34,424 nucleotides of DNA, taken from assembly GCA_943327105.2 (NCBI GenBank), contig CALPVV020000016.1:1-34424 (forward strand), read 5' to 3'. Below are positions 1-19,284 of this stretch, piece after piece. Under the pieces are notes generated by a model. The model was not told where the DNA came from. It searched no databases and worked only from the letters and a program-made list of their open reading frames with translations. Positions within the stretch are counted from its first letter, which is position 1. The number at the start of each line of letters is the position of its first letter. Source of the DNA: Nitrosovibrio sp. Nv4. GTDB taxonomy: Bacteria; Bdellovibrionota; UBA1018; CAIMNF01. Position numbers and translations under genes: made by a program.

Positions 1-93
1 CAGGTTTCGCTCGTTAGTTTTAAGAAAATCAATGGCCGCAAGCCAAAGTTCTCGGAAGACTACCTTAAAATTGCGAAGACATTGGCAGTTTGA
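1..93 (+). CDS. 3' end of an unidentified protein (partial)
   Basis: The first 93 bases are an open frame from the window edge to a TGA stop. They encode the last 30 residues of a protein, ending in KTLAV. The segment is lysine-rich and has no motif I can recognise, so no function is proposed. A good rho-independent terminator about 40 bases downstream supports a real transcription unit ending here. The frame could also be a chance open stretch, but no other gene explains the terminator's orientation toward the plus strand. Confidence 0.5.
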   Translation, partial: QVSLVSFKKINGRKPKFSEDYLKIAKTLAV

Positions 94-133
94 TCTGCGA
101 TCGCACCTTAGATCAGTTCAAGAATTGAGAATC

Positions 134-166
134 AAAAGCCCCGCTCACTGAGTGGGGCTTTTTTGT
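134..166 (+). terminator. Rho-independent terminator, probably bidirectional
   Basis: An almost perfect hairpin: arms AAAAGCCCC and GGGGCTTTT flank an inner CTCA/TGAG pairing, followed by a run of six T on the plus strand. It should stop transcription of the gene ending at 93. On the minus strand the tail is only four T, but the same hairpin can end the histidine kinase transcript. The kinase stop codon (145-147) lies inside the stem. Confidence 0.85.
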
Positions 167-1428
167 TGGATCAGCACTTCTGTTCCCTGGGTGGCATGTG
201 AAGTCGATGCGCCGATGTTTTTCCAGGTAATCTCGACCCCCTGTTTTTTCGCAATCAACACAGCGATCTTAATTCCCAGTCCTGATCCCGGTTCACCGTG
301 TGTTCCGGGTTCCGTGAATCCATCTTGTTGAAGGGCTTTTTCATTGATTCCTTTACCTTGATCGATGATGTACCAATTGACCACGCCTTTTTTCTGATCG
401 GAAGTTAATGTGATTTTCGAATGGGGTGGGCTAAATTTAATCGCATTCGAAAGTAGATTTAAAAATATCTGGTAGATAAAACTTTCGGGGTTGATCCATA
501 GACGATCTTCAGCGCGCATACCATTGGTATCAATCGCGATGTATTTGTCTTCCAATCGGCTTTTTAGCCAGGGCATGAGTTTTGCCAATGCATCTTCGGG
601 CGAAACCCATTCTTTCGGTAACGGCAGGTCTTCATTAGATGCCGCATAAGTTTCGACATTCGAAATAATTTCACGGATCATGATCTGTGAGTTTTCGAGT
701 TGATTGATGACTTTCGGCTCCAAGTTCACGTTCGGATTTTTTCTGATTTTGCGAAGCAGCTGGAGGGCGCTCACCATGGGTTCTTTGATGTCATGGCTCA
801 AGATCCGAAGGAGTCTGAAACGCCACTCACTCTCGGATTGAAGTTTGACCTTGTCATCGCTGAGGATGTTCAAGGCATCACGCCAGGCATCGGAAATCAC
901 CCTGAATTGATAAACCGTCAGCGCGAGGATTGAAAGGTCCAATAGCTCCCGCAAGATGATCAGGTTTTCCTCCTTCATTCTTTTGTGTAGATACCAAGTA
1001 TCCACAAATGGAATCAATGGTAGTGAGAGTTGGAAAACACACATGGCCCCGAGAACGTAAGTTAAAAGTCTATTCTGACCACCAAACATCATCAGGACGA
1101 GGATGAATTGAGGGATGGCAACTAGATTGATGTGTGAAGTGGGTCCAAGAAAGGAGCAGATCCAGATTGAAGCAAGGGCATTGGAAACCTGTGAAACTAC
1201 GTTCAGGGTTACCACTGAAATTGATGATTTGCGAAACCAGAAAGGTGCGCCAATCAGAAAAAGCAGAATATTTACGGGCACAGCTGATTTCGGGTTGAAA
1301 CCTTGTGGGGTGAAATACGCAGAAAAAGCCAAGGTGAAGCTACTATAGATCAGGGTAAACCTCTGAACATAGCTTTGGCGGCTGGCAAGATAAGACTCGG
1401 CCGGTAGGGAATAGTGTTTGGTTTTCAT
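145..1428 (-). CDS. Membrane-bound sensor histidine kinase
   Basis: A 427-residue sensor kinase. The first ~180 residues are strongly hydrophobic with about five or six membrane segments and no large periplasmic domain, so the signal is probably sensed in or at the membrane. The H-box (RILSHDIKEP) gives the likely phospho-acceptor His212. The ATPase domain follows with an N-box (FLNLLSNAIKFS), a G1 box (DQGKGI) and a G2 box (GSGLGI). All catalytic motifs look intact. The ATG is preceded by AGGGAG at a good distance. It is divergent from a response regulator with about 113 bases between them, the usual layout of a cognate pair. The signal is unknown. Confidence 0.93.
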   Translation of the reverse strand: MKTKHYSLPAESYLASRQSYVQRFTLIYSSFTLAFSAYFTPQGFNPKSAVPVNILLFLIGAPFWFRKSSISVVTLNVVSQVSNALASIWICSFLGPTSHINLVAIPQFILVLMMFGGQNRLLTYVLGAMCVFQLSLPLIPFVDTWYLHKRMKEENLIILRELLDLSILALTVYQFRVISDAWRDALNILSDDKVKLQSESEWRFRLLRILSHDIKEPMVSALQLLRKIRKNPNVNLEPKVINQLENSQIMIREIISNVETYAASNEDLPLPKEWVSPEDALAKLMPWLKSRLEDKYIAIDTNGMRAEDRLWINPESFIYQIFLNLLSNAIKFSPPHSKITLTSDQKKGVVNWYIIDQGKGINEKALQQDGFTEPGTHGEPGSGLGIKIAVLIAKKQGVEITWKNIGASTSHATQGTEVLIQQKSPTQ

Positions 1429-1541
1429 GGTTAACTCCCTTCAGTATGATTATCTCGCTTTCGTGAAATCAAATCACTTTTTTTTGAGTTGACTGTTTTT
1501 TTTATTCAATTCAAATAGTTATAAAGCATTAGGAGCGCGTT

Positions 1542-2243
1542 TTGACCCAATCGTCTAGTAGGACAGCATTGCCGAGTATCTTGTGGCTTGAAGACAATCC
1601 AAGCGTGGTGGATTTATTCAAAGAGGAGTTTGAGCTCTATTTTGTTGTTCATCAGAGCAATGATTTCCAGGAGTTCAAGCGAATTTCAAAAGATCGATTG
1701 AAGGGTTATGATGCTTTATTACTCGACATGGAGTTTCCAGAGGGAAAGATTGGGCTCGAGGCGATTCAGTTTTGCAAATCAATTGGCGTGAATTCGCCCA
1801 TTCTCATATTGTCAAATGATGAGTCGCTGTCCACTCGCCTTGAAATGCTGACCAATGGTGCAGAAGATTATCTTTGGAAGTCCATGCACCCTGAAGAAAT
1901 GCTGGTTCGCATCCGGAATGCGATTTCCCGATTCCATCGGAATCGCAAGGATCGAGAAGTGAGTCTTGCCGGAATTTCTCTCTTTCCTCATCGACTTGCA
2001 GTTGAATTGAGTGGGCTGGAAATTGATTTCTCGAAGATCGAATTTCACCTGTTGATGAAACTCATCCAAAATCATCCTTCGCCCGTCAGTTGCGAAAACC
2101 TGAGAGTTGATGTCTGGAAGTTACCCGTTTTGGAGACCGGTACGATCAATACCTTCATCTGGAAAATCAATAAGAAGCTGTCTTTATGGTCTTATCGGAT
2201 TGCCAAAATGGGAGATGGAATTTTCCTCCAGTCAAAACCCTGA
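1542..2243 (+). CDS. OmpR/PhoB-family response regulator
   Basis: A 233-residue DNA-binding response regulator. The receiver domain (about 12-130) has the acidic pair Glu17-Asp18, phospho-acceptor Asp62 (LLLDMEF), Ser91 in the switch position and conserved Lys113, so it should be phosphorylatable. The C-terminal ~90 residues match an OmpR-type winged helix, with DFSKIEFHLL resembling the family's FxLL segment and a recognition helix near TINTFIWKINKKL. The start is TTG, chosen because AGGAG lies 6 bases upstream and no ATG fits as well. The divergent histidine kinase upstream is its likely partner. Targets are unknown; the adjacent lipoprotein gene is one possibility. Confidence 0.92.
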   Translation: MTQSSSRTALPSILWLEDNPSVVDLFKEEFELYFVVHQSNDFQEFKRISKDRLKGYDALLLDMEFPEGKIGLEAIQFCKSIGVNSPILILSNDESLSTRLEMLTNGAEDYLWKSMHPEEMLVRIRNAISRFHRNRKDREVSLAGISLFPHRLAVELSGLEIDFSKIEFHLLMKLIQNHPSPVSCENLRVDVWKLPVLETGTINTFIWKINKKLSLWSYRIAKMGDGIFLQSKP

Positions 2244-2351
2244 CCCTGATTCCCTAGTTCGATCAATTTCTATTGAGTTGAGTTGTGACTTTCCGTTCAT
2301 GAGAATGAAGGAATTCAACATGAATTTGAATTTCCATGGAAAGGGAAAAAA

Positions 2352-3290
2352 ATGAAAAATAGTTTTTGGTTGTCGCTTATATTGTCTTTGTCTACAGGCA
2401 TGATCGGATGTGCAAAAAACGAGGATTCCTCGGCTACATCACCGATTCCCAGCATGGTGGCTATTGCAAAAGGTGCATTGCCCAGCGCTTTGGAATCTTC
2501 AGCAGTAGGATTCACAATTGATTCAAATTTGACCACGTTGAAAGATCGTTTGTTCAGTCCGGGACCGACTGATTTCATGTATCGCTTGAAGATGGTCGAT
2601 GAGCGATTGGCAAGCTTGGCGGATGCAATTGTAGAATGCCAAGATGCTGCAACTTCGACTTATACTCCTCCAGTCGTGGCGACAGGATTTAATTTCCCAA
2701 TGCAGCTTTCTTGCAAACAAGTGGTTGATGCTGCTTCTCAAGGCGTGAATGATTTCAAAGTGTATTTTGGTAAATCGGGTGGTTACTGGTATGTAGCTGA
2801 ACTTCAAACCAATACTGACTTTGAAAGTAGTGATGCAGAACCGCCAACAATGGGCGTTCTTTCTAAAATCAGTGAAGCCGGTGATGAGATGGAAGTTTAC
2901 CAGATCAGTGTCGAGAAAAAGTCAGGCGTCTATTATTCAACCGTGACTCAAATCAAGGCCAATAAAACTACCGGAGTGTTCGAACTCGCTACCTCATCTT
3001 CAGCGGATAATACTCAAACTATTTCTCCTGGCGCGAACTTTTCAGGTGTTGGTTGTGGTGTGAGCATGAAAACGGATGGCACTTATGTCTATGCTACAGG
3101 TTCCTTTGATCAAAGTTCATCTTGTCCAGCGACGGCAACAGTTTGTGCTAATTCAGGTGATTTGAGCGATGCTCCTGGCTCATGCACCAGTTTGACGACT
3201 TTGAGTACGTTGACTTTGGATCGATCTGCGGTGAGCGGAAACAACGCAAAATCATTGGTAGTCGATCGTACTTGGGTTTCTGGTCTTTAA
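2352..3290 (+). CDS. Putative lipoprotein of unknown function
   Basis: A 312-residue exported protein. The N-terminus has Lys2, a hydrophobic stretch and a lipobox-like MIGC with Cys20, so it is probably lipidated and membrane-anchored. The mature part is rich in Ser, Thr and Ala and holds several cysteines (for example CQDAATS, SCKQ, GCGVS, SSCPATATVC) that could form disulfides in the periplasm. I recognise no domain. An AAAGGG-type ribosome binding site precedes the ATG. The gene lies about 108 bases after the response regulator in the same direction, so it may share its transcript or be its target. It ends 3 bases from the convergent PAP2 gene with no visible hairpin. Confidence 0.75.
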   Translation: MKNSFWLSLILSLSTGMIGCAKNEDSSATSPIPSMVAIAKGALPSALESSAVGFTIDSNLTTLKDRLFSPGPTDFMYRLKMVDERLASLADAIVECQDAATSTYTPPVVATGFNFPMQLSCKQVVDAASQGVNDFKVYFGKSGGYWYVAELQTNTDFESSDAEPPTMGVLSKISEAGDEMEVYQISVEKKSGVYYSTVTQIKANKTTGVFELATSSSADNTQTISPGANFSGVGCGVSMKTDGTYVYATGSFDQSSSCPATATVCANSGDLSDAPGSCTSLTTLSTLTLDRSAVSGNNAKSLVVDRTWVSGL

Positions 3291-3293
3291 GTA

Positions 3294-3992
3294 TTAGTTT
3301 GCCACCACAGCGGAAGGAATGGCGATTACGCGCTTGTACTGCTGTCTGTGGTGGAACCAATAATAAGTCGAACTTGCCAGTGTGATTCCACTGATAATGT
3401 CGACCAAGTAGTGTTGTTTGGTGGTCAGAGTGGTCAAGGCAATTGCAGTTGACCAGATGAAGAAGGTCCAGAATAGTTTCTTTTGTTTATCGGTGATGAA
3501 AGCAAATGCCGAGAGGTAAACCGATGCAACATGCAAACTAGGTAGGCAATTGGTCGGAGCATCTGCCTTGCGCAACCAAACCCAAGTTGCCTGAAGCCAT
3601 TGTGGAATATCAGTTGGAACAGGAAACAGTTCACGCGGATAAGTCACCGGATAAGCAAAAAAGATAAAGCAGGCGATGATTTGAGCGACAAAGTAAGAAT
3701 AGAGATACTGGTTGATGTTGTCTTCTCGCTTCAACAGAATGTAAACAAACGCAAAATAGAAGTACTCACTGATGTAAATGAGGACGGTCCACGGCATGAA
3801 GGGCGTGTTTTCATCGATCCAAGTAAATGGTAACAGAGTGGGCTCAACCACTGGAAAGTGGTTGGTCACATAATAGAGGGCATAGGCCACAGCGTACATG
3901 ATTGCACCGGCAACGTATTTATTTCCTCGGGTAATGAATAAAGGCAGAGTCATTAGGGCGCCTATTATCGCTGATAATGTTTTTTTTAACAA
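3294..3992 (-). CDS. PAP2-superfamily membrane protein, AUR1/inositolphosphotransferase-like
   Basis: A 232-residue integral membrane protein with about six hydrophobic segments. It carries the PAP2 C2 motif in the variant form NCLPSLHVAS (His154) and the C3 motif TKQHYLVDIISG (His194, Asp198), the catalytic histidines of lipid phosphatases and phosphotransferases. The PSLH form with the xQHYxxDxxxG motif fits the AUR1-like branch (PAP2_3) better than PgpB-type PSGH enzymes. It may dephosphorylate a lipid phosphate or transfer a head group; the substrate cannot be told. The start is a TTG (3990-3992) without a clear ribosome binding site, so the true start could be the ATG at residue 14. It is an isolated unit, convergent with the lipoprotein gene. 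Confidence 0.82.
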   Translation of the reverse strand: MLKKTLSAIIGALMTLPLFITRGNKYVAGAIMYAVAYALYYVTNHFPVVEPTLLPFTWIDENTPFMPWTVLIYISEYFYFAFVYILLKREDNINQYLYSYFVAQIIACFIFFAYPVTYPRELFPVPTDIPQWLQATWVWLRKADAPTNCLPSLHVASVYLSAFAFITDKQKKLFWTFFIWSTAIALTTLTTKQHYLVDIISGITLASSTYYWFHHRQQYKRVIAIPSAVVAN

Positions 3993-4050
3993 GATGCGAA
4001 GCGAAAAAAACTGATCTTTTTCATCTCCATTTTCGAGATTGAAGTGTGGG

Positions 4051-4073
4051 GCCCGCCTTGATAGGGTGCGGGC
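4051..4073. promoter_or_regulatory. GC-rich inverted repeat upstream of the MFS transporter gene
   Basis: GCCCGC (4051-4056) and GCGGGC (4068-4073) form a 6-bp perfect stem with an 11-base loop, 46 bases before the transporter ATG. No T-run follows on either strand, so it is not a classic terminator. It could be an operator or a leader hairpin. The function is not established. Confidence 0.35.
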
Positions 4074-4119
4074 ATCCGAAAAATTCGTCTAAAAACATCT
4101 GAATAGTGAGAATTCATCT

Positions 4120-5502
4120 ATGTTAGTTGAAAGTATCAAGCAGTTTTTTCCCGTTTTGATCTTGTTGTTTGCTGTTTGGGTGGTGCTTTCCCGCTTGCCC
4201 AAGGTTGAATTGGGGCACAGCAAAGCCTTTCAAAACCGCCGGTTACTGAACTGGTTGCCACTGGGACTCACTTACGCCTTCCTTTATATGGCGAGATACA
4301 ACCTGACCGTGAGTAAGAACGCCTTTGGTGATTTGATGACCAACGCTGATTTCGGAACCATTTTTGGTGTCGGAACCATCGTTTACGGTTTCGCTTTCGT
4401 GATCAATGGCCCACTCACTGATAAAATGGGCGGAAGAAAAGCCATTCTCATCGCAGCTGTAGGTTCGGCGCTCGCCAATTTCGGAATGGGTGTTTTGACC
4501 TATCTTGGGCACACTTCTAATTTAGTTCTCTCGTTTTCCATTCTTTACGGTTTGAACATGTACTTCCAGAGTTTTGGTGCGGTAGCGATTGTGAAGGTGA
4601 ATGCTTCATGGTTCCACTTGCGTGAGCGCGGAACTTTCGGCGGGATTTTCGGTATCCTGATCTCACTTGGTCTTTATTTTGCGTACGACTGGGGCGCAAT
4701 GATCACGAAGAATTTTTCTTTGCCGATGGTGTTCTTCATTCCAACGTTGATCTTGATCGTGTTTTTCATGATTTCTTATGCAACCGTTCGTGACACTCCG
4801 TCTGAAGCGGGTTTTGAAGATTTTGATACCGCCGACGTGAGCCATGAAAAAGAGGGTGAAAAGCTTGGCATTGTTCACATCGCTAAACGCATGTTCTCGC
4901 ACAAGGTGATTGTGATCATCTCGTTGATCGAGTTCTGTAGTGGATTTTTACGTCACGCAATCATGAATGAGTATCTCATTTTCTCAAAGCAAACCGGTGT
5001 GATTGAAAACATCGTTGCCAAAAACTGGGGACTCTTGCTCTGCTGTGCGGGAATTCTCGGCGGGGTATTCGCTGGTACAATTTCAGATAAGGTATTTCAA
5101 TCCCGTCGCGGGCCGGTCTCGGCGGTTCTTTACGGAATCATGTTGCTGGGTTCGATTGCGATGGTGTTCATGCTTCAATCACCGTATCTCGGCTGGTTGA
5201 TGGTGTTCATGTCGATGGCGATCATCGGCGTTCACGGTATGCTTTCAGGTACAGCGAGCATGGATTTTGGCGGTAAGAAAAACGTCGGAACTGCAGTCGG
5301 TATCATTGACGGAATGGTTTATCTCGGTGCTGCTTTTCAATCATTCATTTACGGTTCTGTGTTGCCAAATGGTGATGCAGCTGCAGTTCAAAGCAACTGG
5401 ATCTCTTGGCCGGTAGTGATGGTTCCGATTTCACTCATGGGTTTCTTGCTCGCGATGAAAATCTGGAACGCTCAAGCCCGTTCTTCACACGGTGGCCATT
5501 AG
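4120..5502 (+). CDS. MFS transporter of the organophosphate:phosphate antiporter (GlpT/UhpT) family
   Basis: A 460-residue inner-membrane transporter with about 12 membrane helices plus an extra N-terminal hydrophobic segment (residues 8-24). After that segment the sequence follows the OPA family: WLPLGLTYAFLYMARYN with Arg59 in helix 1, the MFS loop DKMGGRK after helix 2, and FLRHAIMNEY with Arg278 in helix 7. In GlpT the two equivalent arginines bind the phosphate group, so a phosphorylated organic substrate is likely; glycerol-3-phosphate and sugar phosphates cannot be told apart. The ATG lacks a strong ribosome binding site. The helicase gene follows after 18 bases in the same direction and may be co-transcribed. 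Confidence 0.88.
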   Translation: MLVESIKQFFPVLILLFAVWVVLSRLPKVELGHSKAFQNRRLLNWLPLGLTYAFLYMARYNLTVSKNAFGDLMTNADFGTIFGVGTIVYGFAFVINGPLTDKMGGRKAILIAAVGSALANFGMGVLTYLGHTSNLVLSFSILYGLNMYFQSFGAVAIVKVNASWFHLRERGTFGGIFGILISLGLYFAYDWGAMITKNFSLPMVFFIPTLILIVFFMISYATVRDTPSEAGFEDFDTADVSHEKEGEKLGIVHIAKRMFSHKVIVIISLIEFCSGFLRHAIMNEYLIFSKQTGVIENIVAKNWGLLLCCAGILGGVFAGTISDKVFQSRRGPVSAVLYGIMLLGSIAMVFMLQSPYLGWLMVFMSMAIIGVHGMLSGTASMDFGGKKNVGTAVGIIDGMVYLGAAFQSFIYGSVLPNGDAAAVQSNWISWPVVMVPISLMGFLLAMKIWNAQARSSHGGH

Positions 5503-5520
5503 AAAGAACCCTGAATTCGC

Positions 5521-6816
5521 ATGAAATGGACAACAGATCAGAACCAAGCCATTGAAAAACTCGGCGCCGGTGGAAACGTGTTTCTGACCGGAGGTGCGGG
5601 CACGGGTAAATCGACTGTCATTCAGAACTTTTTGCGTGAAGGCATTGATGGCACGAAAAACACCGCAGTCTTGGCTTCAACCGGTACTGCTGCAATTCTT
5701 CTTGGGGGGCGAACCTTCCATAGTTTTTTTGGTCTTGGAATCATGGAAGGCGGCGTGGATCTCGTCGTTTCCCGCGCAGTCAAACACCAAGGAATCATTC
5801 AACGTCTCAAAAAAGTAGATCAGATTTTGCTCGATGAGATTTCCATGATTGGTGCGGCTGAATGGATGGCCGCTGAAAAAATTGCTCGTATGGCTCGCAA
5901 ACGCCAAGCTGAACCGTGGGGTGGAATTCGAGTGGTCGCTATTGGTGATTTTGCTCAATTGCCTCCGGTGGTGAAGCCGCCGATGCGTTCGATGAATCAA
6001 GATCCGTATTCACAAGACCTCTTTTCGCAAGAACAACGTGAACCCGAAAAACCATGGTGTTTTCTCACTGATACCTGGCATAAGACCGAATTCGATTCAG
6101 TGAACTTGCGTGAGATCGTTCGCTCGAATGACTCTCATTGGAATGAAATTTTAAATGAATTGCGCTGGGGCCAGTTCACGCTTCGTGCAAAAGAAGTGCT
6201 CGATAGCCGCATTCGCCGGGTACCACTTGATTTTCAAGGAACACGATTATTTTCACGTCGAACTCAGGTAGATCGCCTCAATCATGAGCGGTTGCACATG
6301 CTCAAAGGGACAGTAAAAGTTTACGACACGGTTTATGTTGGTCTTGCTCAAAAGATTGATGATTTGAAACGAAATGCACCGATTGGTGAAGCAATCACTT
6401 TGAAAGAAGGCGCATTGGTGATGTTTCGTCAAAATGACCCTGAACTTCGATACGTGAATGGTACGCTAGGCACCATTGTTCGGTTGAAAGACGGTGAAGT
6501 ACAAGTTGAGCTTTTGAATGGTCGATTGATCGACCTCAAGCCAGCGACCTTCAGTGTGCTGGATGCCGAAGGTGAAGTGGTGGCGACCGCTACGAACTTT
6601 CCGTTGAACTTGGCTTGGGCTTGTACGATTCATAAAGCTCAAGGTGCTACCCTCGATAAAGCACATGTTGATTTGCGTGGTGTTTGGGAGCACGGCCAGA
6701 GTTATGTGGCCCTTTCGCGTGTTCGCTCATTGGACGATCTCACGATTGAAGGCTATTCTCCATCGGGGTTTAAAATCGACCCAGCAGTGAAAGAATTCTA
6801 CCGAAGAATGAGCTGA
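5521..6816 (+). CDS. Pif1/RecD-like superfamily 1B DNA helicase
   Basis: A 431-residue ATP-dependent helicase. Visible SF1 motifs are Walker A GGAGTGKST (Lys30), a Thr/Ala-rich motif Ia (STGTAAILLGGRTFHSFF), Walker B LLDEISMIG, motif III GDFAQLPPV, motif V CTIHKAQGATLD and motif VI YVALSRVRSLDD. Order and wording are typical of bacterial Pif1-like proteins, which unwind 5'-to-3' and act on stalled forks or structured DNA. The protein is compact, with no extra nuclease or zinc domain. Whether it is a general genome-maintenance enzyme or has a narrower task cannot be told. It sits 18 bases after the transporter gene, with no evident functional link. Confidence 0.9.
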   Translation: MKWTTDQNQAIEKLGAGGNVFLTGGAGTGKSTVIQNFLREGIDGTKNTAVLASTGTAAILLGGRTFHSFFGLGIMEGGVDLVVSRAVKHQGIIQRLKKVDQILLDEISMIGAAEWMAAEKIARMARKRQAEPWGGIRVVAIGDFAQLPPVVKPPMRSMNQDPYSQDLFSQEQREPEKPWCFLTDTWHKTEFDSVNLREIVRSNDSHWNEILNELRWGQFTLRAKEVLDSRIRRVPLDFQGTRLFSRRTQVDRLNHERLHMLKGTVKVYDTVYVGLAQKIDDLKRNAPIGEAITLKEGALVMFRQNDPELRYVNGTLGTIVRLKDGEVQVELLNGRLIDLKPATFSVLDAEGEVVATATNFPLNLAWACTIHKAQGATLDKAHVDLRGVWEHGQSYVALSRVRSLDDLTIEGYSPSGFKIDPAVKEFYRRMS

Positions 6817-6822
6817 AAAAAG

Positions 6823-7152
6823 CTAGTTAGCTGTTGTCTTCGTCTGTTCTGAACCTATTTTATAGAGGGAATCGAAGTGATACATGCCGGTGCGGTGACC
6901 ATCACTCCACTCGATGTGAATGCCGTAACGACCGACAGGTTGAATTTTCATCGGTTTTACGTCCGGTTTCAGCGTTTCCTTGCGTAAGGTTCTTTTTCCG
7001 GTCATTTCATCTACACAAGTTGCGCAAGGGCATTCAAAGCGTAACTCGATATAGGGCAGGGTGAAGGTCTTGCCATCGTCAAATACCATTTCGATATGGT
7101 GTGGTTTTTGAGTGGATGCCGTGATCTTGGTAAGCTGGTGACTGGAGTGCAT
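6823..7152 (-). CDS. DUF971 (gamma-butyrobetaine hydroxylase-like N-terminal domain) protein
   Basis: A small protein of about 109 residues matching the DUF971/GBBH-like N-terminal family: a beta-rich start with FTLPYIELRFECPCATCVDE, then VGRYGIHIEWSDGHRTGMYHFDSL. The CxC/C cluster and the WSDGHxTGxY segment are family hallmarks and probably bind a metal. In other bacteria such stand-alone proteins are often found near Fe-S assembly genes, but none is present here. The start is uncertain: ATG at 7150-7152 was chosen, while an in-frame GTG at 7165-7167 would add five residues. Neither has a good ribosome binding site. It is convergent with the helicase gene, 6 bases apart. Confidence 0.85.
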   Translation of the reverse strand: MHSSHQLTKITASTQKPHHIEMVFDDGKTFTLPYIELRFECPCATCVDEMTGKRTLRKETLKPDVKPMKIQPVGRYGIHIEWSDGHRTGMYHFDSLYKIGSEQTKTTAN

Positions 7153-7175
7153 GCCAAAATTTAACACGAATTAGG

Positions 7176-7204
7176 TTCAAAAAAACAGTCACTTTGGTTA
7201 CTAT
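7176..7204 (+). promoter_or_regulatory. Putative sigma70-type promoter of the lipid operon
   Basis: TTCAAA (7176-7181) and TACTAT (7199-7204) are 17 bases apart and match 4 of 6 and 5 of 6 consensus bases. Only 8 bases separate the -10 box from the ATG at 7213, and there is no Shine-Dalgarno sequence, so the transcript would start at or next to the start codon. Confidence 0.45.
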
Positions 7205-7212
7205 CTCATTTC

Positions 7213-8139
7213 ATGTTAACGCAGGCCATTAGCACCAAATTACAAGATCCTTTGAACCGGCTTTACCGCGAGCGGGTTGCTCAGGCGTTGGCACGTGCTT
7301 TTCAGTCGACGCCGTTGACTCCGAATATGGTTACGGTCATTCACACCATGATCGGTGTATTGGGTGCCTTTCTCATTTACCGTGAGTCCTATCTGTATGC
7401 AGTTCTTTGTTTCGAGCTTCGCACCATTCTTGATTGCATGGATGGAATTCTTGCTCGATTGAAAAATCAAAGTACGGCAACGGGGCGCGCACTTGATGCT
7501 ATTGGCGATGGTATTTCATTCAACTCGCTGATGATTGCCGGTACCCTGCGATTGATTCTTGATTTCAAGGCTTATCCTAACCCCATGATTGTTGTCGGAG
7601 TGATGTTTTTTGCATTTGTTTCCGTTCACTCTGGTGTGGTTTATCAACTCATGCGCCGTAAGCTCACATCGATTGCGCACAAGGAAGTCGATATTGTTGA
7701 AACGGAATGGCGCGATATTTATGAACAGGTCAAGAACTCGAACCCTTCTTTACTAGTGAAGTTCAGTTACTGGATCGATTCCATGACCATCAAGTTTGTT
7801 TCTGAAGAGTGGTACCTCAAGGTGAAGAAACGTAAAGACCTTGAGAACTGGAGAGAAAAGGCCATTCAAGAGGCTGAAATGATGCATGAGCTTGCGTGCC
7901 GCACCCGCAAGGTCGAGTTCCGTCGTGCCGTTCGTGCAGCCTCATTTGTCAGTGATGACAACGTGTTTTCTTTAATGAGTATTTGTTTTGTTGTTTTCGG
8001 CGTATTTCACGCATCTTTTTTACCCTTTGTGCACCCGGTGTTGATCGCTTTTTCTGTAGGGTTGGCGTATTCGATTCTATCTTTGTCGCTCGGGCTTCAC
8101 TATTACCACAACTTCCTGCACGGGGTTTATCGTGAATGA
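7213..8139 (+). CDS. CDP-alcohol phosphatidyltransferase family protein
   Basis: A 308-residue membrane enzyme with the complete family signature D74-x2-D77-G-x2-A-R82-x8-G91-x3-D95-x3-D99. These residues bind divalent metal and CDP, and they catalyse transfer of a phosphatidyl or similar group from a CDP-activated donor to an alcohol. Hydrophobic helices lie around 38-70, 100-150 and 255-305. A charged region of roughly 80 residues (about 155-240), longer than in simple PgsA-type enzymes, is inserted before the last helices. Donor and acceptor are unknown. Its stop overlaps the next gene's start (ATGA), so it is translationally coupled to the MMPL exporter, which suggests the exporter moves its product or a derivative. 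Confidence 0.9.
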   Translation: MLTQAISTKLQDPLNRLYRERVAQALARAFQSTPLTPNMVTVIHTMIGVLGAFLIYRESYLYAVLCFELRTILDCMDGILARLKNQSTATGRALDAIGDGISFNSLMIAGTLRLILDFKAYPNPMIVVGVMFFAFVSVHSGVVYQLMRRKLTSIAHKEVDIVETEWRDIYEQVKNSNPSLLVKFSYWIDSMTIKFVSEEWYLKVKKRKDLENWREKAIQEAEMMHELACRTRKVEFRRAVRAASFVSDDNVFSLMSICFVVFGVFHASFLPFVHPVLIAFSVGLAYSILSLSLGLHYYHNFLHGVYRE

Positions 8140-10619
8140 AGTTTGATCTGTTCTTTAAAAAACTGGCCTCTTTTTTAGATCGTCGCGCCCTCAGTGTTTG
8201 CCTGTTGTTCATGGCGCTTTCGGCCGTGTCAGTTCATTTTACCATTAAGCTTTACTCCAGCCTGAAGCCTGACATTGAAGAAATGTTGCCGACCACTTCT
8301 CGCAGTGTGATCGATTTGAAAGAAGTGACCAGTCGCTTGCGTTCTATCGACAACTTAGGGGTGTTGATCTTCTCTAAGAATTCCGAAGCGGCAGGACGCT
8401 TTCAGCAGGCACTTGCCACTGAACTTGAAAAGTTACCTCAAACTGTTTGTTCCAATATCGAATACAAGATTACCGAAGAAGTCGATTTCTTCCAGAAACG
8501 CAAAGCCCTATTCATTGATAAGAATGACCTTGAGTCGATCCAGAAATTCATTCGTGAAAAGATCGATTATGAAAAGTTCATTTATAATCCGGTGAATCTC
8601 GTTGTAGAGAACAAACCGGAAGAGCCAAAATTCGATTTCGTTGCCCTTGAAAAGAAGTACTCATCCAAGACTGACGAGTTTTCCCATTTTCCTGGTGGTA
8701 TTTATTCAACTCCCGACGGAACCAAGCGTTTGATACTTGCCTATGCACCCAATCAATCGATTGAAGCTGCGCACGCCCTTAAAGATGCCGTGGTTGCGGC
8801 AGTTGAAAAGGTGAGCCCGCAAAAATATTCGTCTGACATTGAAGTGAAGTATTCGAGCAACGTTCAGGACATTCTTGAAGAGCAGGCTTCACTGATGGCT
8901 GACTTGGTTCTCTCAACAGTCGGGGTTGGTGTTGTAGTTGCGTTGCTATTGCTGCTTTATTACCGCGCCTTCTTTTCGACCATGGCCCTGATCATGAGTC
9001 TTTTGGTGGGAACACTGATCACGCTTGGAGTTTCCTATTTCCTGGTGGGCGACCTCAATGCCAATTCAGCATTCCTTGGCTCGATCATCATGGGGAACGG
9101 AATCAACTTCGGAATCATGATTTTAGCCCGCTATCTTGAAGAGCGAAGAGCTGAGCAAAAAACGCATCTCGATGCACTTGAAATTTCCATGCGGGAAACG
9201 GTATTGCCCACCTTTACGGCTGCCATTGCGGCAGCACTTGCTTACGGGTCACTGATGTTGACAAGCTTCCGTGGTTTCAGTCAGTTCGGGGTGATCGGCT
9301 TTGTCGGGATGGTTGCCTGTTGGTTGTGCGCGTATACGTTTTTTCCAGCATCGCTTTCATTGCTCAATCGATTTGTTTCGGTCGTCGGTAAGAAACAGCA
9401 TGGTGAGACGAAATCACTCTGGGCTCAATTTCTGCGAAAATTACTCATCAAGATTCCTAAACCGATCGCCATCTTTGGCCTCGTTGCTACATTGGTCTCG
9501 GTTTTTGCGATTTCTCAAATTAATCAGAGCATCATTGAAACGGATCTTTCCAAGTTGCGTGACAAGACATCGATGGAAGAGGGTTCAGGCTTTTTAAATC
9601 GCTACATCGATCAGATTCTCAAACGTTACAGTACTCCAATCGCGGTCATGACTCATAATGAAGAAGAGTCAGCGAAAATCGCGAAAAAGCTGAATGAATT
9701 GAAAGAAAAAGAAGGCAAGAAATCAATGATAGCGAACGTGCTTCGCGTTCAGGATTTTGTTCCACCCGATCAAGAAGTTAAAATCAAGTATCTGAACCAG
9801 ATTCGCGAACAGATTCCACCAAAGATTTTCTGGATGTTACCGGAAGCAGAAAAAGCCCGTGTTCGTGAATTTCTTGCCACTGAATCTCTCAAGCCGTTCA
9901 CCATGAAAGACCTACCGGTGAAGTTGCTTGATCGTTTTCGTGAAAAAGACGGAAGCATTGGAAATCTGGTTCTTGTCGAGCCGCCCATTACAGATGAAAT
10001 CCGCCAAGGTGAACCACTCTTGCGTTTCGTGAAAGGCATTCGAGACACCGTCGATGCGGTTGCACCGAACTCACCGGTAGCGGGTCGTTTACCGGTTTCG
10101 GCTGACATGCTCATGGCTGTTTTGAAAGATGGTCCGATTGCGACGGCAGCGTCGGCGCTTGCCGTGGTCTTGCTCACCATCTTCCTGTTCAAAAGCGTTG
10201 AGCTTTCTGTTCTGGTTCTTTCTGCTCTGTTTTTAGGGGTGGCGTGGATGGTTGCCGGAATGCATTTATTCCATTTAAAGATCAACTTTCTCAATTTCAT
10301 CGCCCTTCCCATTACTTTTGGAATCGGGGTCGACTATGCGGTGAACGTATTTCACCGTTATCGTGAAGAGAAAAATCGCAAAGATATCCATCAAAACGAT
10401 GACTTGCCGGTGATCAAGGCTGTTTATCACACGGGTGGGGCCGTGGTTTTGGCGAGCATGACGACCACCATTGGCTGGTGTTCTTTGCTAATTGCTGGTA
10501 ATCAGGCATTTGTTAGTTTTGGTAGGCTTGCCGTCATCGGAGAAATCACCTGCGTTACTGTTGCAGTTTTGGTGATTCCTTCAGTCCTTATCTGGTTGCA
10601 AGGCCGCAATAAAGTTTAG
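8136..10619 (+). CDS. RND/MMPL-family lipid exporter
   Basis: An 827-residue inner-membrane RND-superfamily transporter made of two similar halves. Each half has one membrane helix (near 20 and 445), a large periplasmic loop (about 40-255 and 465-660) and five helices. The layout resembles HpnN/MmpL-type lipid exporters rather than three-component drug pumps. The second half has the proton-relay motif GIGVDYAVN with Asp733. The matching position in the first half reads GNGINFGIM with Asn324. The start overlaps the stop of the phosphatidyltransferase gene by 4 bp, and MlaE and MCE genes follow. This context points to export of a lipid made by its neighbour; the substrate is inferred, not seen. 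Confidence 0.88.
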   Translation: MKFDLFFKKLASFLDRRALSVCLLFMALSAVSVHFTIKLYSSLKPDIEEMLPTTSRSVIDLKEVTSRLRSIDNLGVLIFSKNSEAAGRFQQALATELEKLPQTVCSNIEYKITEEVDFFQKRKALFIDKNDLESIQKFIREKIDYEKFIYNPVNLVVENKPEEPKFDFVALEKKYSSKTDEFSHFPGGIYSTPDGTKRLILAYAPNQSIEAAHALKDAVVAAVEKVSPQKYSSDIEVKYSSNVQDILEEQASLMADLVLSTVGVGVVVALLLLLYYRAFFSTMALIMSLLVGTLITLGVSYFLVGDLNANSAFLGSIIMGNGINFGIMILARYLEERRAEQKTHLDALEISMRETVLPTFTAAIAAALAYGSLMLTSFRGFSQFGVIGFVGMVACWLCAYTFFPASLSLLNRFVSVVGKKQHGETKSLWAQFLRKLLIKIPKPIAIFGLVATLVSVFAISQINQSIIETDLSKLRDKTSMEEGSGFLNRYIDQILKRYSTPIAVMTHNEEESAKIAKKLNELKEKEGKKSMIANVLRVQDFVPPDQEVKIKYLNQIREQIPPKIFWMLPEAEKARVREFLATESLKPFTMKDLPVKLLDRFREKDGSIGNLVLVEPPITDEIRQGEPLLRFVKGIRDTVDAVAPNSPVAGRLPVSADMLMAVLKDGPIATAASALAVVLLTIFLFKSVELSVLVLSALFLGVAWMVAGMHLFHLKINFLNFIALPITFGIGVDYAVNVFHRYREEKNRKDIHQNDDLPVIKAVYHTGGAVVLASMTTTIGWCSLLIAGNQAFVSFGRLAVIGEITCVTVAVLVIPSVLIWLQGRNKV

Positions 10620-10637
10620 TAGTATTGGACGAATTAA

Positions 10638-11405
10638 ATGATCAAGAACGCGATCGCCTGGCTAGGTGAACTCACGATTTTTACTCAGCGCACGCTCGAG
10701 TCCGCTCCAAAAATTTGGAGACGGAGGGGTATCTTTTTGAATCAATGCGAATTCATTGGTGTCAGTAGTCTTGGCATTCTTTCAGTTGCTGCGATTTTCA
10801 TGGGCGCGGTTCTGGGTTATCAACTTTATACCTCTTTTGCGCTTTTCGGTGCCCAGGCATTGGTTGGCGGTACTGTGGGTGTTTCAATATTCAGGGAAAT
10901 GGGCCCAGTCATTGGCGCCATCATGGTCACCGGTCGTGCAGGTGCGGCGATTGGTGCCGAGATCGCCAGCATGCGAGTTTCAGAACAAATTGATGCACTT
11001 GAAGTGATGGGCGTGAACCCTTACGAATATCTCGTTTTGCCGCGTGTTTTAGCAGGCGCGATCATGATGCCTTTATTGGCCTATATTTTTGGTGGAATCG
11101 CGACACTTGCTGCATGTGGCATTGCTTGTGGTGTTCTTGATTTGAGTTTTCCGGTGTTCTGGAAAGAATTCCGTTTGTGGGTTGATGCAGTTGATATTCT
11201 TCACTGCACGATGAAGGGCATCAGTTTTGGTGCGGCTCTTTCATTGCTCGGCTGTTTTTATGGTTTCCGTGCTCAAGGCGGAGCAAGAGCGGTTGGTTTT
11301 TCAACACGTTCAACCGTGGTGGCAAGCTGTTTGACTATTTTGTTGTTGGATTATCTTTGGACCATGGTGCTCCCGGTACGTGGTTCCATCATCGTATTGC
11401 ATTAG
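10638..11405 (+). CDS. MlaE-family ABC transporter permease
   Basis: A 255-residue inner-membrane permease of the MlaE family. Typical features are GVSSLGILSVAAIFMGAVLGYQ near the N-terminus, the conserved FREMGPVIGAIMVTGRAGAAIGAEIASM segment and EQIDALEVMGVNPYEYLVLPR, the helix that normally contacts the MlaF ATPase. About five or six membrane helices. In Mla-type systems MlaE dimers work with an MlaF ATPase and hexameric MlaD to move phospholipids between inner and outer membranes. The MCE protein is encoded directly downstream, but no ATPase gene is in this operon, so the ATPase must come from elsewhere if the system is ABC-driven. It lies 18 bases after the MMPL gene. Confidence 0.93.
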   Translation: MIKNAIAWLGELTIFTQRTLESAPKIWRRRGIFLNQCEFIGVSSLGILSVAAIFMGAVLGYQLYTSFALFGAQALVGGTVGVSIFREMGPVIGAIMVTGRAGAAIGAEIASMRVSEQIDALEVMGVNPYEYLVLPRVLAGAIMMPLLAYIFGGIATLAACGIACGVLDLSFPVFWKEFRLWVDAVDILHCTMKGISFGAALSLLGCFYGFRAQGGARAVGFSTRSTVVASCLTILLLDYLWTMVLPVRGSIIVLH

Positions 11406-11415
11406 GAGATTGGTA

Positions 11416-12924
11416 ATGAGTAACCCGAATGAAGCGAGCACTAAAATCAAGTGGAGAGTGGGAATGTTCACTCTTGGCGGCATTTTGTTTATCGGAGTGC
11501 TTTCCATTTATATCAATAACCGTCCGTTCTGGTGGCGTCCGTGTGAATTGGTTCAAGTGACCATCGAAGATGCAACCGGCCTCAAGAAAAAATCTCCGGT
11601 GAAGTCTCTAGGTCTTGATATCGGTTATATTTCTGACATCGGTCTTGTGGGTCAAGGCGTGAAGCTCGTTCTTTGCATCACTGGTCCGGTTGAAACCATT
11701 GAAACTAAAACCAAGGCTTATGTGCGTGGTGAGGGTTTCTTGGGCGATAAGTTTCTTGAATTGAAGCCGGTGAAATATACCGGTTCTCATTTGATGGAAG
11801 GTGATTCTGCCGAAACTTCTGCACCTTCTGCAATTGAAGAAAAAACAGCTCCGACCGTGACTCCTGCCAATTCCACTTCAGGTGCATCTTTACTGAGAAA
11901 AATCTTTGGTTTTGAATCGGCGTATGCTGAAGGGATGAGCGTGTTGGGTAGTGCTCAAGCGGCTCCACAAAAGAAAAGCAAGCAAGTCGAATTGGGTGAG
12001 AAGTCTGTCGACATGCAAGAGATGATGACCCAGCTCAATAGCGTGATGGGTGAGGTGAAGGGTATTACTTCTTCATTGAAAGAGTCGATCAATCCGGAAG
12101 AAATTCGCGGTACCATCAAGCAATTGAACAAGACCCTTGAAGAAGCTTCTAAAACATTTTCACCTCAAGGTGGATTGACTCAGACGGCTCAACGGACCTT
12201 GATCAAGCTTGAAGATACAATCGAACAGTTTCGTGATCAGTTGACCCGTATCAATCAGGGCCAGGGTTCGGTGGGTATGGTTTTAAATGACCCGACCTAC
12301 GCGGAAGAGTTGAAGAAGGCTCTTATCAATTTGAATAAGATTTTGGGTCGAGCGAGTGACATGCGTCTTTCTGTGCAACTCGGTGTGATTCAATTGAATG
12401 CATATAATGCAAGCCGTGGTGAGTTTCAGGTAACGATCTGGCCCCGCAAGCATCGTTATTACATGTTGGGTTTGGCTTCTGACCCTCGTGGTACGATCAC
12501 TCAAGATACGATTACCACCTCAGTCGGTGGAACCGAAACGACTGTTCAGTCGACCAAGGTGAGTCAGGGTGGATTTGCGATTACTGCGATGGTTGGAACC
12601 GTGTTTGCGGATCGCTTTGATGTGGCAGTAGGTGTGCATCATGGAGACGGTGCGGCTAGCCTTGGATTAAATTTGGGTCCAGCTGACTCAAAAGAAATGA
12701 TCCAGTTCAAAAACGAGATTTATTTCCGGGGTAAAACAGTCAACGGTGCCTGGACGGCGCAGCCGGATGCGCGTAGCTATTTGATATTACAGCCGATTTC
12801 AATCTTCTACTTGTCTGGAGGGATCGAGGGTTATCGTAAGGTCAATGGCAGTTTGTCCACTTCCTTTGGTGCCGGCCTGAGATTTGATGACGAAGATATT
12901 AAACTTTTGTTCTCTTTCTTGTAA
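11416..12924 (+). CDS. MCE (MlaD-like) protein with barrel-like C-terminal domain
   Basis: A 502-residue periplasmic protein anchored by one membrane helix (about 15-33). An MCE domain covers roughly 40-120. A Pro/Ala/Ser-rich linker is followed by a helical region (about 195-310) with several amphipathic stretches (SLKESINPEEIRGTIKQLNK) that could form the central tunnel of a hexamer. The last ~180 residues are beta-rich with alternating aromatic residues and end in GAGLRFDDEDIKLLFSFL, like the outer-membrane-porin-type tails of other deltaproteobacterial MCE proteins. The start at 11416 was chosen for AGGAG 7 bases upstream; a longer frame from 11380 overlaps mlaE and has no such site. Likely role: lipid passage between membranes with the MlaE protein upstream. 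Confidence 0.87.
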   Translation: MSNPNEASTKIKWRVGMFTLGGILFIGVLSIYINNRPFWWRPCELVQVTIEDATGLKKKSPVKSLGLDIGYISDIGLVGQGVKLVLCITGPVETIETKTKAYVRGEGFLGDKFLELKPVKYTGSHLMEGDSAETSAPSAIEEKTAPTVTPANSTSGASLLRKIFGFESAYAEGMSVLGSAQAAPQKKSKQVELGEKSVDMQEMMTQLNSVMGEVKGITSSLKESINPEEIRGTIKQLNKTLEEASKTFSPQGGLTQTAQRTLIKLEDTIEQFRDQLTRINQGQGSVGMVLNDPTYAEELKKALINLNKILGRASDMRLSVQLGVIQLNAYNASRGEFQVTIWPRKHRYYMLGLASDPRGTITQDTITTSVGGTETTVQSTKVSQGGFAITAMVGTVFADRFDVAVGVHHGDGAASLGLNLGPADSKEMIQFKNEIYFRGKTVNGAWTAQPDARSYLILQPISIFYLSGGIEGYRKVNGSLSTSFGAGLRFDDEDIKLLFSFL

Positions 12925-13011
12925 TTTCACGGGTTTTGGCCTATTGTTCTTGAAAATTGAATTTAACAAAAAAGCAGGATCTGTGTGTAAGCAGGTCTGA
13001 AGGAGATAATC

Positions 13012-13182
13012 ATGCGCGAAAAAGTAAGACTCATTTCTTCCGCGAAAACGGGATACAGTTACTACACTACTAAAAACAAGCAAAAGCAAACGGACAAGAT
13101 CCAATTGAAAAAATATGATCCAGTCGTTCGCAAGCACGTTTTGTTCACTGAAACAAAAATGCCAAGTCACTCTAAAAAATAA
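13012..13182 (+). CDS. rpmG: 50S ribosomal protein L33, cysteine-free form
   Basis: A 56-residue basic protein matching L33 ([20 protein letters not shown], then [16 protein letters not shown]). The two CxxC zinc pairs of the C+ form are absent, so it does not need zinc. A strong AGGAG lies 6 bases before the ATG. The gene sits 22 bases before the L31 gene and forms a short ribosomal unit with it. Confidence 0.95.
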
Positions 13183-13204
13183 TTAAGAAAGTAGGAAATA
13201 TCCC

Positions 13205-13456
13205 ATGAGAGAAGGAATCCACCCGATTTATCGCGACGTAATTTTTAAAGATCTTCAAAGCGGTCATTCATTTTTGACCCGTTCTTGCGTTCAAACCAAA
13301 GACGTAATTACTTGGGAAGATGGAAAGCAGTATCCATTGTACAAAATGGAGATCTCTTCAAAATCTCACCCATTCTACACTGGCCAAGACAAGCGCGTTG
13401 ATACCACTGGCCGCGTAGAGAAGTTCATGAACAAGTACAAACACATTAAAAAGTAA
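13205..13456 (+). CDS. rpmE2: 50S ribosomal protein L31, type B
   Basis: An 83-residue protein with the type B hallmarks MREGIHPIYRDVIFKD near the start, WEDGKQYPLYKMEISSKSHPFYTG in the middle and TTGRVEKFMNKY at the end. Cys28 is the only cysteine, and it does not form a CxxC zinc site, so this is the zinc-independent form. A weak AGGA element precedes the ATG. It follows rpmG closely and is ended by a strong terminator, so the pair is probably one transcript. Confidence 0.95.
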   Translation: MREGIHPIYRDVIFKDLQSGHSFLTRSCVQTKDVITWEDGKQYPLYKMEISSKSHPFYTGQDKRVDTTGRVEKFMNKYKHIKK

Positions 13457-13517
13457 TTGTTCAGGAAACAAATTTTCCTCCATTGGGCCTGATTTAGCAG
13501 TACAGGTCTGATCAAAT

Positions 13518-13556
13518 AAGCCCCGGGAGCTTTATGTGCCCGGGGCTTTTTATTTT
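13518..13556 (+). terminator. Strong rho-independent terminator after the L33-L31 unit
   Basis: AGCCCCGGG and CCCGGGGCT form a perfect 9-bp stem with an 11-base loop, followed by TTTTTATTTT. It ends the ribosomal protein transcript. Confidence 0.92.
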
Positions 13557-13660
13557 CCAAAAATCATTCGATGAGAGTCTGCTTCAACTTTTTTCATTGA
13601 GCCTTCCGATATGATTTGAACTGTTCATTTCATCGACACCTGTCAGTTCAAGAAGGAATG

Positions 13661-13703
13661 CTTGCTTCTGTCTGAAGGTGATTGCTGAGCAATTACAAGC
13701 AAG
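13661..13703 (+). promoter_or_regulatory. Nested inverted repeat in a possible 5' leader
   Basis: CTTGCTT (13661-13667) pairs with AAGCAAG (13697-13703). Inside lies ATTGC-TGA-GCAAT (13681-13693), and a short TTC/GAA pairing is possible between them. Together they could form a three-way junction just upstream of the secreted protein gene. The role is unproven; it might be a leader structure, an operator or chance. The whole 13457-13737 interval otherwise holds only the terminator. Confidence 0.3.
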
Positions 13704-13737
13704 AGTAGACGGCATGAGGGTTGCTTTATCACCAGGC

Positions 13738-14322
13738 ATGAAAACCCTTATGATGACCATTCTTGCGCTTTCTTTCTTCAATGCTGATGCACTCGCCATG
13801 GGCAAGCGTCGTGAAAAAGTCGATGGTGATAAATACAACGTGTATCGCATCAATAAGGGGGCTCATTATTCAAAAGGCCCTAAGCTTAAACTTCCTACGT
13901 ACAAAGATTCATTCACCTTCAAGGTGGTTTTTGATGATTCAGCAAAGTACACCACTGTTGATCCCGTGAACCAATACGATGTGAATAAGTTGATTGGTTT
14001 TACTGATTGTGGAGGCATGGCAATTCATAAAAATAGTGCCCGACTAGGATGGAACTGGGATCACGGCCAACTGCACTTATATGCTTATACTTATGCGAAC
14101 AAAGTCAGGGCATTTGAAAAAATAGGTGATATTCCAATCGGTAAAGCATTTGAAGCCGGTATCAGAATTAGCGGAGATCATTATGTTTTCACTTACAATG
14201 GCAAGGAAACCAAAATGGCGCGAGGCTGTAGCAAGTCAGGCTCATTTAAGACGTGGAGCTATCCGTACTTTGGCGGCGATGAAACGGCTCCGCAAGAAAC
14301 CAAGATTTTGGTGAAGTGGTAA
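13738..14322 (+). CDS. Secreted protein of unknown function
   Basis: A protein of about 194 residues with a clear signal peptide: MKTLMMTILALSFFNADALA, with cleavage likely after ALA near residue 20. The mature part is rich in aromatic residues and predicted beta strands (FTFKVVFDD, ARLGWNWDHGQLHLYAYTYANK, HYVFTYNGKE). It has two cysteines (TDCGG and RGCSK) that could pair in the periplasm, which suggests a jelly-roll or lectin-like fold, but I recognise no family. The start was chosen so that the signal peptide begins at residue 1. In-frame ATG at 13714 and GTG at 13678 are alternatives, and none has a convincing ribosome binding site. It is convergent with the next gene, 8 bases apart. Confidence 0.7.
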   Translation: MKTLMMTILALSFFNADALAMGKRREKVDGDKYNVYRINKGAHYSKGPKLKLPTYKDSFTFKVVFDDSAKYTTVDPVNQYDVNKLIGFTDCGGMAIHKNSARLGWNWDHGQLHLYAYTYANKVRAFEKIGDIPIGKAFEAGIRISGDHYVFTYNGKETKMARGCSKSGSFKTWSYPYFGGDETAPQETKILVKW

Positions 14323-14330
14323 TCAAAAGA

Positions 14331-14834
14331 TTAAAGATGAGGCGTTCCGTTGCCTTGTCCGTACAGTGCACCATCAATAACCAGAAAGCCTGATTTGTGG
14401 CCTTGAGGTTTTGGGTTACGGTGAACCCAGTGAATGATCGCACCATTTGGTGATGGTTGATATTGCCCAGTCGGTGCAGTTGAGGTGATGTAGTCGCCGC
14501 ATGCTTCGACTTTCATGCCGATCTTGATGGCGGGAAGTTCACCAAAGCCCACGTTATAGATCACTTCAATCGAATCATTCGCTTGAGAACCAAGTTGAAT
14601 CGCAAAATGATGATGGTTGGTGTGGTCGGGATAAATATCTCTCACCATACCCTGGACGTGTCCTCTGGCCAGAAATTGATTCGGCGTTGAAGTTTTCCAT
14701 TCAATCACTTGTGCATTGTTGATCGAGATGTTTTTGCCGGAAGTATCGAGGCAATCAGGAGTCGATGCTTGCGGAATAAACGCAAGTGAAGTGTGAATCA
14801 AAAACTGGGTCAGAACAAGCAGGCCTTGAATCAT
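14331..14834 (-). CDS. Secreted DUF3465-family protein
   Basis: A 167-residue protein with a signal peptide (MIQGLLVLTQFLIHTSLA, cleavage near 18). The mature part matches DUF3465: QFLARGHVQGMVRDIYPDHTNHHHFAIQL, then VGFGELPAIKIGMKVEACGDY, and NGAIIHWVHRNPKPQGHKSGFLVIDGALY. The His-rich strand and the IHWVHxNP motif are the family's conserved core; the fold resembles an OB-type barrel and the function is unknown. An AAAGGAG ribosome binding site stands 8 bases before the ATG. It is divergent from the YciH-like gene, with about 144 bases between them, and has no obvious functional partner. Confidence 0.82.
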   Translation of the reverse strand: MIQGLLVLTQFLIHTSLAFIPQASTPDCLDTSGKNISINNAQVIEWKTSTPNQFLARGHVQGMVRDIYPDHTNHHHFAIQLGSQANDSIEVIYNVGFGELPAIKIGMKVEACGDYITSTAPTGQYQPSPNGAIIHWVHRNPKPQGHKSGFLVIDGALYGQGNGTPHL

Positions 14835-14963
14835 GAAGAATTCTCCTTTTGCCTAAAAACTGCCAATCGATCTCTAAGAAATGGTGGCTCATTTGGCAGC
14901 CTTTTGCGAATAAATAAAAGGCCTAACAAAATTCTGACATTTACGCGGCGTGTTTTTGGTCTG

Positions 14964-14969
14964 TATACT
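14964..14969 (+). promoter_or_regulatory. Possible -10 element of a leaderless yciH-like transcript
   Basis: TATACT stands 9 bases before the ATG at 14979 and matches 5 of 6 consensus bases. The -35 region 17 bases upstream (TTACGC) is weak. No ribosome binding site is present between the box and the ATG. Confidence 0.35.
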
Positions 14970-14978
14970 GACTTCATC

Positions 14979-15341
14979 ATGAGTAAAGAAGGTCGATTGG
15001 TCTATTCAACAGACCCTGAATTGAATCGAAAATGTCCAAAATGCAAGGAAGTGGTTTCTGAATGTACGTGTGAACCTGAGCACGACCTGAAAACCTACAA
15101 ATTCATCGCGGTTCTTCGCATTGAGAAGCAGGGGCGTGGAGGCAAAACCGTTACGGTTATTGACCGTTTGCCGAAGAATGAAATTTTCTTGAAAGAACTG
15201 ACCACCAAATTGAAAAAGAAGTGTGGAAGTGGTGGCACATACTTGATGGATGGCAAAGAGGGAGTGATTGAGATTCAGGGCGAGAAACGCGATCTGATCC
15301 GTGAGTTGCTTCAAAAAGAGAACATCAAAACCAAGGGCTGA
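14979..15341 (+). CDS. yciH: YciH/SUI1 (eIF1-like) translation factor
   Basis: A 120-residue protein of the SUI1/eIF1 family. The start MSKEGRLVYSTDPE matches the N-terminus of E. coli YciH. The core reads RIEKQGRGGKTVTVIDRLP, then LTTKLKKKCGSGGTYLMDGKEGVIEIQGEKRDLIRELL, the family's RNA/30S-binding fold. The N-terminal arm carries four cysteines (Cys19, Cys22, Cys29, Cys31; CPKC and CTC) that could hold a zinc ion. In E. coli the protein affects start-site selection and survival under stress. The ATG at 14979 was chosen from this homology; the frame stays open upstream to 14793, but that part overlaps the divergent gene's signal peptide region and is not conserved. It converges with the phospholipase D-like gene, 8 bases apart. 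Confidence 0.92.
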   Translation: MSKEGRLVYSTDPELNRKCPKCKEVVSECTCEPEHDLKTYKFIAVLRIEKQGRGGKTVTVIDRLPKNEIFLKELTTKLKKKCGSGGTYLMDGKEGVIEIQGEKRDLIRELLQKENIKTKG

Positions 15342-15349
15342 AATTGAGC

Positions 15350-17203: not shown

Positions 17204-17269
17204 AAAGCCATGGCCTCCAATCGTAATGATCGGAACAATTCAGCCATAACGTTAAGTCAGGTTTGTGTT

Positions 17270-19276: not shown

Positions 19277-19284
19277 GGTTCGAA

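Follow-up and report, generated by a model that had tools for sequence, protein, structure and literature searches.

A predicted bidirectional terminator hairpin that contains the stop codon of a histidine kinase gene convergent with pfkA

Intrinsic terminators shared by two convergent genes are described for Escherichia coli (tonB and its neighbour) and, as a set, for Z. mobilis (PMC7566282). The locus reported here likewise has a GC-rich palindrome with an A-tract and a T-tract between tail-to-tail genes. Unlike those terminators, as far as that source describes them, the present palindrome reaches into the coding end of one partner and holds the stop codon of that gene. In E. coli, a terminator lying a few bases past a stop codon was reported to be almost fully repressed by the terminating ribosome, and the repression was gone without translation (PMC4824070). 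According to the same account, the unequal efficiency of bidirectional terminators may reflect unequal distances to their genes, and some terminators overlap the upstream gene. The tR2 terminator of E. coli described there shares with the present hairpin a stop codon within ribosome reach; the present one differs in being a natural, predicted case in which the stem-loop contains the stop of one gene and lies 44 nt from that of the other. Terminators within ribosome reach of the stop are also described for species with runaway transcription, and a short stop-to-terminator distance is used there as a proxy for it (PMC7858274). In those genomes, as that source presents them, stop-abutting spacing is typical; in this genome it is an exception. 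The arfA and mscL genes of E. coli (PMC10070815) share the convergent layout, and there too one gene carries, at the 3' end of its coding sequence, a stem-loop complementary to the 3' UTR of its partner. The arfA RNA is described as being cut so that its stop codon is lost, whereas here the kinase-strand U-tract (137-130) lies downstream of the TGA (147-145), and an mRNA ending there keeps its stop.

The hairpin and its two gene ends

The window, by which the whole analysed stretch of 34,424 nucleotides from Nitrosovibrio sp. Nv4 is meant, begins with the last 30 codons of pfkA. A 344-aa ORF in the relative G005 has a C-terminus that matches the 30 encoded residues (62%, E 2.9e-7); weaker matches are to ORFs in six further relatives (43-50%, E 0.005-0.3). 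The matching ORFs of G005 and G002, the two that were scanned, belong to Pfam family PFK (E 6e-103 and 1e-106). A gap of 51 bases separates the pfkA stop from the end of a convergent sensor histidine kinase gene, which is followed by a divergent response regulator gene and a third gene (Table 1); the third gene adjoins the kinase and the regulator also in G002, G050 and L038. Rho and NusG are encoded in the genome.

Table 1. Coordinates of the features at the pfkA/kinase junction and in the adjoining part of the window
Feature	Position	Strand	Remarks
pfkA (6-phosphofructokinase), 3' end	1-93	+	TGA at 91-93; contig starts inside the gene
U-tract TTTTGATT of the predicted kinase-strand terminator	130-137	-	weaker tract; from the sequence and the stricter scan
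Hairpin	134-162	both	GC core 138-158; loop 147-149; A-tract 134-137 pairs with T 159-162
Kinase stop TGA	145-147	-	T (147) in the loop; the 3' arm starts with G and A (146, 145)
Sensor histidine kinase, 427 aa	145-1428	-	HATPase_c at residues 315-421
Kinase codons K423-S-P-T-Q427	148-162	-	162-150 form the 5' arm of the kinase-strand hairpin
U-tract TTTTTT of the predicted pfkA-strand terminator	159-164	+	core begins 44 nt past the pfkA stop
Response regulator	1542-2243	+	divergent from the kinase; belongs to the unit that separates pfkA from PAP2
Third gene of the unit	2352-3290	+	no Pfam match at E 0.01
PAP2 gene	3294-3992		
Transporter (MFS)	4120-5502		

The hairpin is formed by an inverted repeat (134-147/149-162) with arms that are 93% complementary. 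On the + strand, RNA folding of 134-162 gives a stem of 13 pairs at -20.6 kcal/mol, followed by TTTTTT (z -5.8, 0 of 200 shuffles as good). The kinase strand gives 12 pairs and one mismatch at -17.1 kcal/mol, followed by TTTTGATT (z -4.7, again 0 of 200 shuffles as good); in each of two longer folding frames 1 of 200 shuffles was as good. Taken by itself, a fold of -17 to -18 kcal/mol on the kinase strand is nonetheless strong. The two strands differ at 143/153, where a G-U pair on the + strand stands against an A-C mismatch on the - strand, and in their tails, TTTTTTGT (which holds the T6) on the + strand against the weaker TTTTGATT on the other. The + strand is thus favoured twice, by the G-U pair in place of the mismatch and by the better tail. 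Relative to the two stops, the GC core lies 44 nt past that of pfkA and overlaps that of the kinase (d = -14).

A simple terminator scan of 1-20000 listed only the + strand site at this place, with 5 pairs. It returned 24 terminator-like sites against 21.5 expected from shuffling, so that the simple scan alone proves nothing. A stricter scan called a terminator on both strands at 134-162. The locus thereby has a hairpin stable on both strands, a U-rich tract after the stem on both, and convergent gene ends, as is looked for in a bidirectional intrinsic terminator. Folding and the stricter scan agree with the earlier note, which had placed the kinase stop inside such a hairpin between convergent genes, and its claim that the terminator also serves the convergent gene is in keeping with the distance from the pfkA stop and the complete U-tract. 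The same note had the last kinase codons and the TGA form one arm; this is correct for the KSPTQ codons, whereas the TGA starts in the loop and enters the opposite arm. Rfam gave no match at the gathering score over 1-3400. The assembly has 3 palindromes of the type AAAGCCCC...GGGGCTTT and none of a reversed control pattern, and a large repeat family was rejected on this small count. A second hairpin with T-rich tails on both strands was seen at 13520-13546, between genes called at 11380-12924 and 13678-14322.

Spacing of stops and terminators

Distances between stop codons and terminators were surveyed in 830,843 bases (36% of the 2,308,231-base assembly), made up of the window and, from each of contigs C1-C15 and C17-C41, the leading 20 kb or the whole contig. 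Genes were ORF calls of at least 100 aa (712 gene ends), terminators were hairpins with a U-rich tail, and energies came from a simplified stacking model. The strict set has a hairpin after 50 of the 712 gene ends, with 35 at 15-34 nt, 9 at 35 nt or more, 4 at 0-14 nt and 2 overlapping the stop. The lenient set (75 of 712) has 43, 21, 7 and 4 in the same classes. Hits closer than 15 nt, overlaps included, number 11/75 in the lenient and 6/50 in the strict set, and the median distances are 28 and 26.5 nt. Within this 36% of the assembly, short stop-to-stem distances are not the rule. The most frequent distances are around 20-30 nt, and none fall at 10-14 nt in any of three stringencies (L043-L062, L066-L085 and the window).

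The core energies in the stacking model are -11.3 for the kinase strand and -16.1 for the + strand. Compared with the strict set of 50, the kinase-strand core ranks last or ties for last; in the lenient set, 8 of the 75 hairpins are weaker. The + strand core has a middle rank, 30 of the 50 strict hairpins being equally or more stable. On these distances and energies, the placement of the hairpin is normal for pfkA and abnormal for the kinase. The low rank of the kinase-strand hairpin would suit an inverted repeat that arose by chance within coding DNA and plays no part in termination, as would the lenient stop overlaps, which are near background (4 seen against 1.7 expected from the internal rate). 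Strict hairpins nevertheless occur inside genes at a rate of 0.005 per kb, and the + strand hairpin carries a complete U-tract at a usual distance; a chance repeat is accordingly very hard to credit.

Small control samples were taken from E. coli K-12 (250 kb), G002 (400 kb, same genus) and a Clostridia MAG (277 kb). Lenient median distances are 22, 26 and 14.5 nt in these, against 28 nt here. The share of lenient hits closer than 15 nt is 7/27 in E. coli (p = 0.24 against this genome), 4/21 in G002 (p = 0.73) and 20/40 in Clostridia (p = 0.0001). The strict shares (2/7, 1/10 and 3/9, against 6/50 here) do not differ significantly, with p = 0.25 for E. coli and 0.13 for Clostridia, and a rank test against Clostridia gave p = 0.052. 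The spacing clearly differs from the Clostridia MAG in the lenient set only. By the distance proxy, and on samples of this small size, the organism looks transcription-translation coupled.

This spacing bears on the possibility that the hairpin is a fully working two-way terminator, ending both transcripts about equally well because the polymerase has moved far ahead of the ribosome. The folds and U-rich tails on both strands are as this reading would have them, and according to PMC7858274 and PMC13323073 transcription runs uncoupled in B. subtilis and has been proposed to do so in other bacteria. Against it, hairpins adjacent to the stop are uncommon here, as the survey counts show. The called genes have a purine content of 51.4%, near the 51.5% of the E. 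coli sample and lower than the 54% that PMC13323073 gives for B. subtilis; the Clostridia sample has 50.9%, and the purine marker of coupling did not separate the genome samples. We regard equal two-way termination as unlikely.

Hairpins between convergent genes were collected from 98 pairs with gaps of up to 250 bases; pfkA and the kinase were left out of this set, the pfkA fragment being shorter than 100 aa. Twenty-one hairpins were found, of which 10 score on both strands, a further point for two-way termination. All but one of the 21 keep at least 20 nt from one or other stop, and on the opposite side 9 either come within 7 nt of the stop or run over it. Five of these nine jammed hairpins score solely toward the distant gene, four score both ways and none solely in the jammed direction. 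The kinase case continues such compaction into the coding sequence. A distance of at least 20 nt on one side was also kept by 9/14 convergent-pair hairpins in Clostridia, 3/4 in E. coli and 2/3 in G002. Jamming is not special to this genome, since half of the Clostridia hairpins (7 of 14) likewise lie against or across a stop.

Kinase tail and gene order

Orthologues of the kinase were compared from G002 (71%), G001 and G007 (59%), G050 (50%), L038, L039 and L040 (52-54%), and G054, where the gene is in two pieces (46 and 61%). The palindrome of the window is absent from the kinase 3' ends of all eight, so a conserved arrangement, as would be looked for in arfA-type control, is lacking among them. 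Near the kinase stop no terminator-like hairpin was called in seven of the eight, even in the lenient scan. The eighth, G054, has a different, weaker and mismatched hairpin across the kinase stop (L036, stop at 8536-8538, - strand, next gene co-directional), followed by TTTTT. It passes the lenient scan only, with -10.6 in the stacking model and -10.9 in ViennaRNA, and 19 of 500 mononucleotide shuffles were as good. The overlap in G054 might be more than accident, and a hairpin with a T-run over a second kinase stop counts in favour of two-way termination. In G001 and G007 (L004 and L005, 1441-1443) the kinase TGA lies in a short AT-rich inverted repeat with a T-run after it, in a sequence unlike that of the window; the repeat of G001 folds at just -5.3 kcal/mol. 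G050 has a hairpin over the kinase stop without a U-tract. The kinase frame of G002, the closest orthologue (L032, - strand), contains an in-frame TAG in mid-gene, which is either a decayed gene or an assembly error; its 3' end may for this reason be little constrained.

The window kinase was aligned with five orthologues (G001, G050, L038, L039 and L040), G002, G007 and G054 being left out. The last invariant residue is Q422, and the tails after it are 3 to 11 residues long and differ in sequence. To judge from this alignment, KSPTQ is a free variable tail beyond Q422, outside the conserved domain. One distant orthologue ends in ...IQQISP, so that the S and P of KSPTQ may simply be inherited rather than made by the hairpin. 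The earlier note had KSPTQ partly fixed by RNA structure and named the C-termini of relatives as the place to look; the tails past Q422 vary there and the palindrome is not kept, and on both grounds an RNA constraint on these residues is not supported.

The genes pfkA, PAP2 and MFS are adjacent without the kinase/regulator/third-gene unit in G002, G004, G005 and G008, that is at 4 of 7 pfkA loci; at the other 3, PAP2 was not found within the fetched stretch. The unit, which lies within 94-3293 of the window, is present as such elsewhere in G002, and also in G050 and L038, and seems to move as a block. These gene orders are most simply explained if, in this lineage, the unit moved in between pfkA and PAP2. 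The ends of the unit carry no mobile-element signature in the form of a direct or inverted repeat of at least 7 bases (85-170 against 3256-3335). No terminator hairpin was called at the pfkA/PAP2 junctions of the four relatives, and none within 150 nt of the pfkA stop in six of seven; the seventh (L139) has a hairpin 114 nt from it. An inherited pfkA terminator is not supported by these loci. Since the four junctions lack a called hairpin, the one in the window is either new in the lineage or came with the unit.

None of the relatives compared shows the pfkA/kinase junction of this genome. This counts against a regulatory switch, in which translation of the kinase would decide between a stop and an antisense run into pfkA and so tie the sensor to glycolysis, by analogy with the arfA/mscL RNAs. 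The geometry would fit, and arfA/mscL is, in the account of PMC10070815, a convergent pair with antisense control; such a switch is still highly improbable for a junction of one genome.

Proposed mechanism and meaning

The hairpin is a real, well-formed predicted terminator whose kind is known but whose placement is extreme and one-sided; it sits in an ordinary kind of compact gene junction whose spacing is unusual for this genome. It is usable in principle on both strands and probably weakened by translation in the kinase direction. The explanation that we prefer as a whole, at a probability of roughly 0.7, is that it is mainly the terminator of pfkA, that termination on the kinase side is weakened by translation, and that the overlap results from the placement of the unit.

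We infer that the hairpin would act in vivo as an intrinsic (Rho-independent) terminator with pfkA as its main client. A polymerase leaving pfkA would make the hairpin 44 nt past the stop, beyond the reach of the terminating ribosome, and be released at TTTTTT. On the other strand the same palindrome spans the end of the kinase gene, and a ribosome finishing there would cover or melt it. That a ribosome at the stop could melt the hairpin had been raised in the earlier note; it is plausible, the principle being published for E. coli (PMC4824070, as far as described there) and the usual spacing in this genome fitting it, but its application to this locus is one that we infer. Termination of the kinase transcript would be weak as long as translation keeps pace with transcription, and would become likely only in the absence of a nearby ribosome. 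Transcripts of the kinase gene that pass the hairpin would extend antisense into pfkA as far as the point where Rho, a possible backup, or another signal ends them. The arrival of the kinase/regulator/third-gene unit between pfkA and the gene that used to adjoin it probably created the overlap, which, as we propose, was tolerated because the last five residues of the kinase lie outside the conserved domain.

A more speculative form of this mechanism, to which we give very little credence, would make the hairpin a one-way gate set by translation. The pfkA transcript would always stop, and the kinase transcript would stop only if poorly translated and otherwise run antisense into pfkA; the 9 of 21 jammed hairpins may then form a one-sided class.

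The locus offers a clean natural case in which one hairpin lies beyond ribosome reach for pfkA and within reach for the kinase. This one locus could test how far translation silences intrinsic terminators outside model species. If the one-way gate were true, translation of a sensor kinase would tune the glycolytic gene pfkA.
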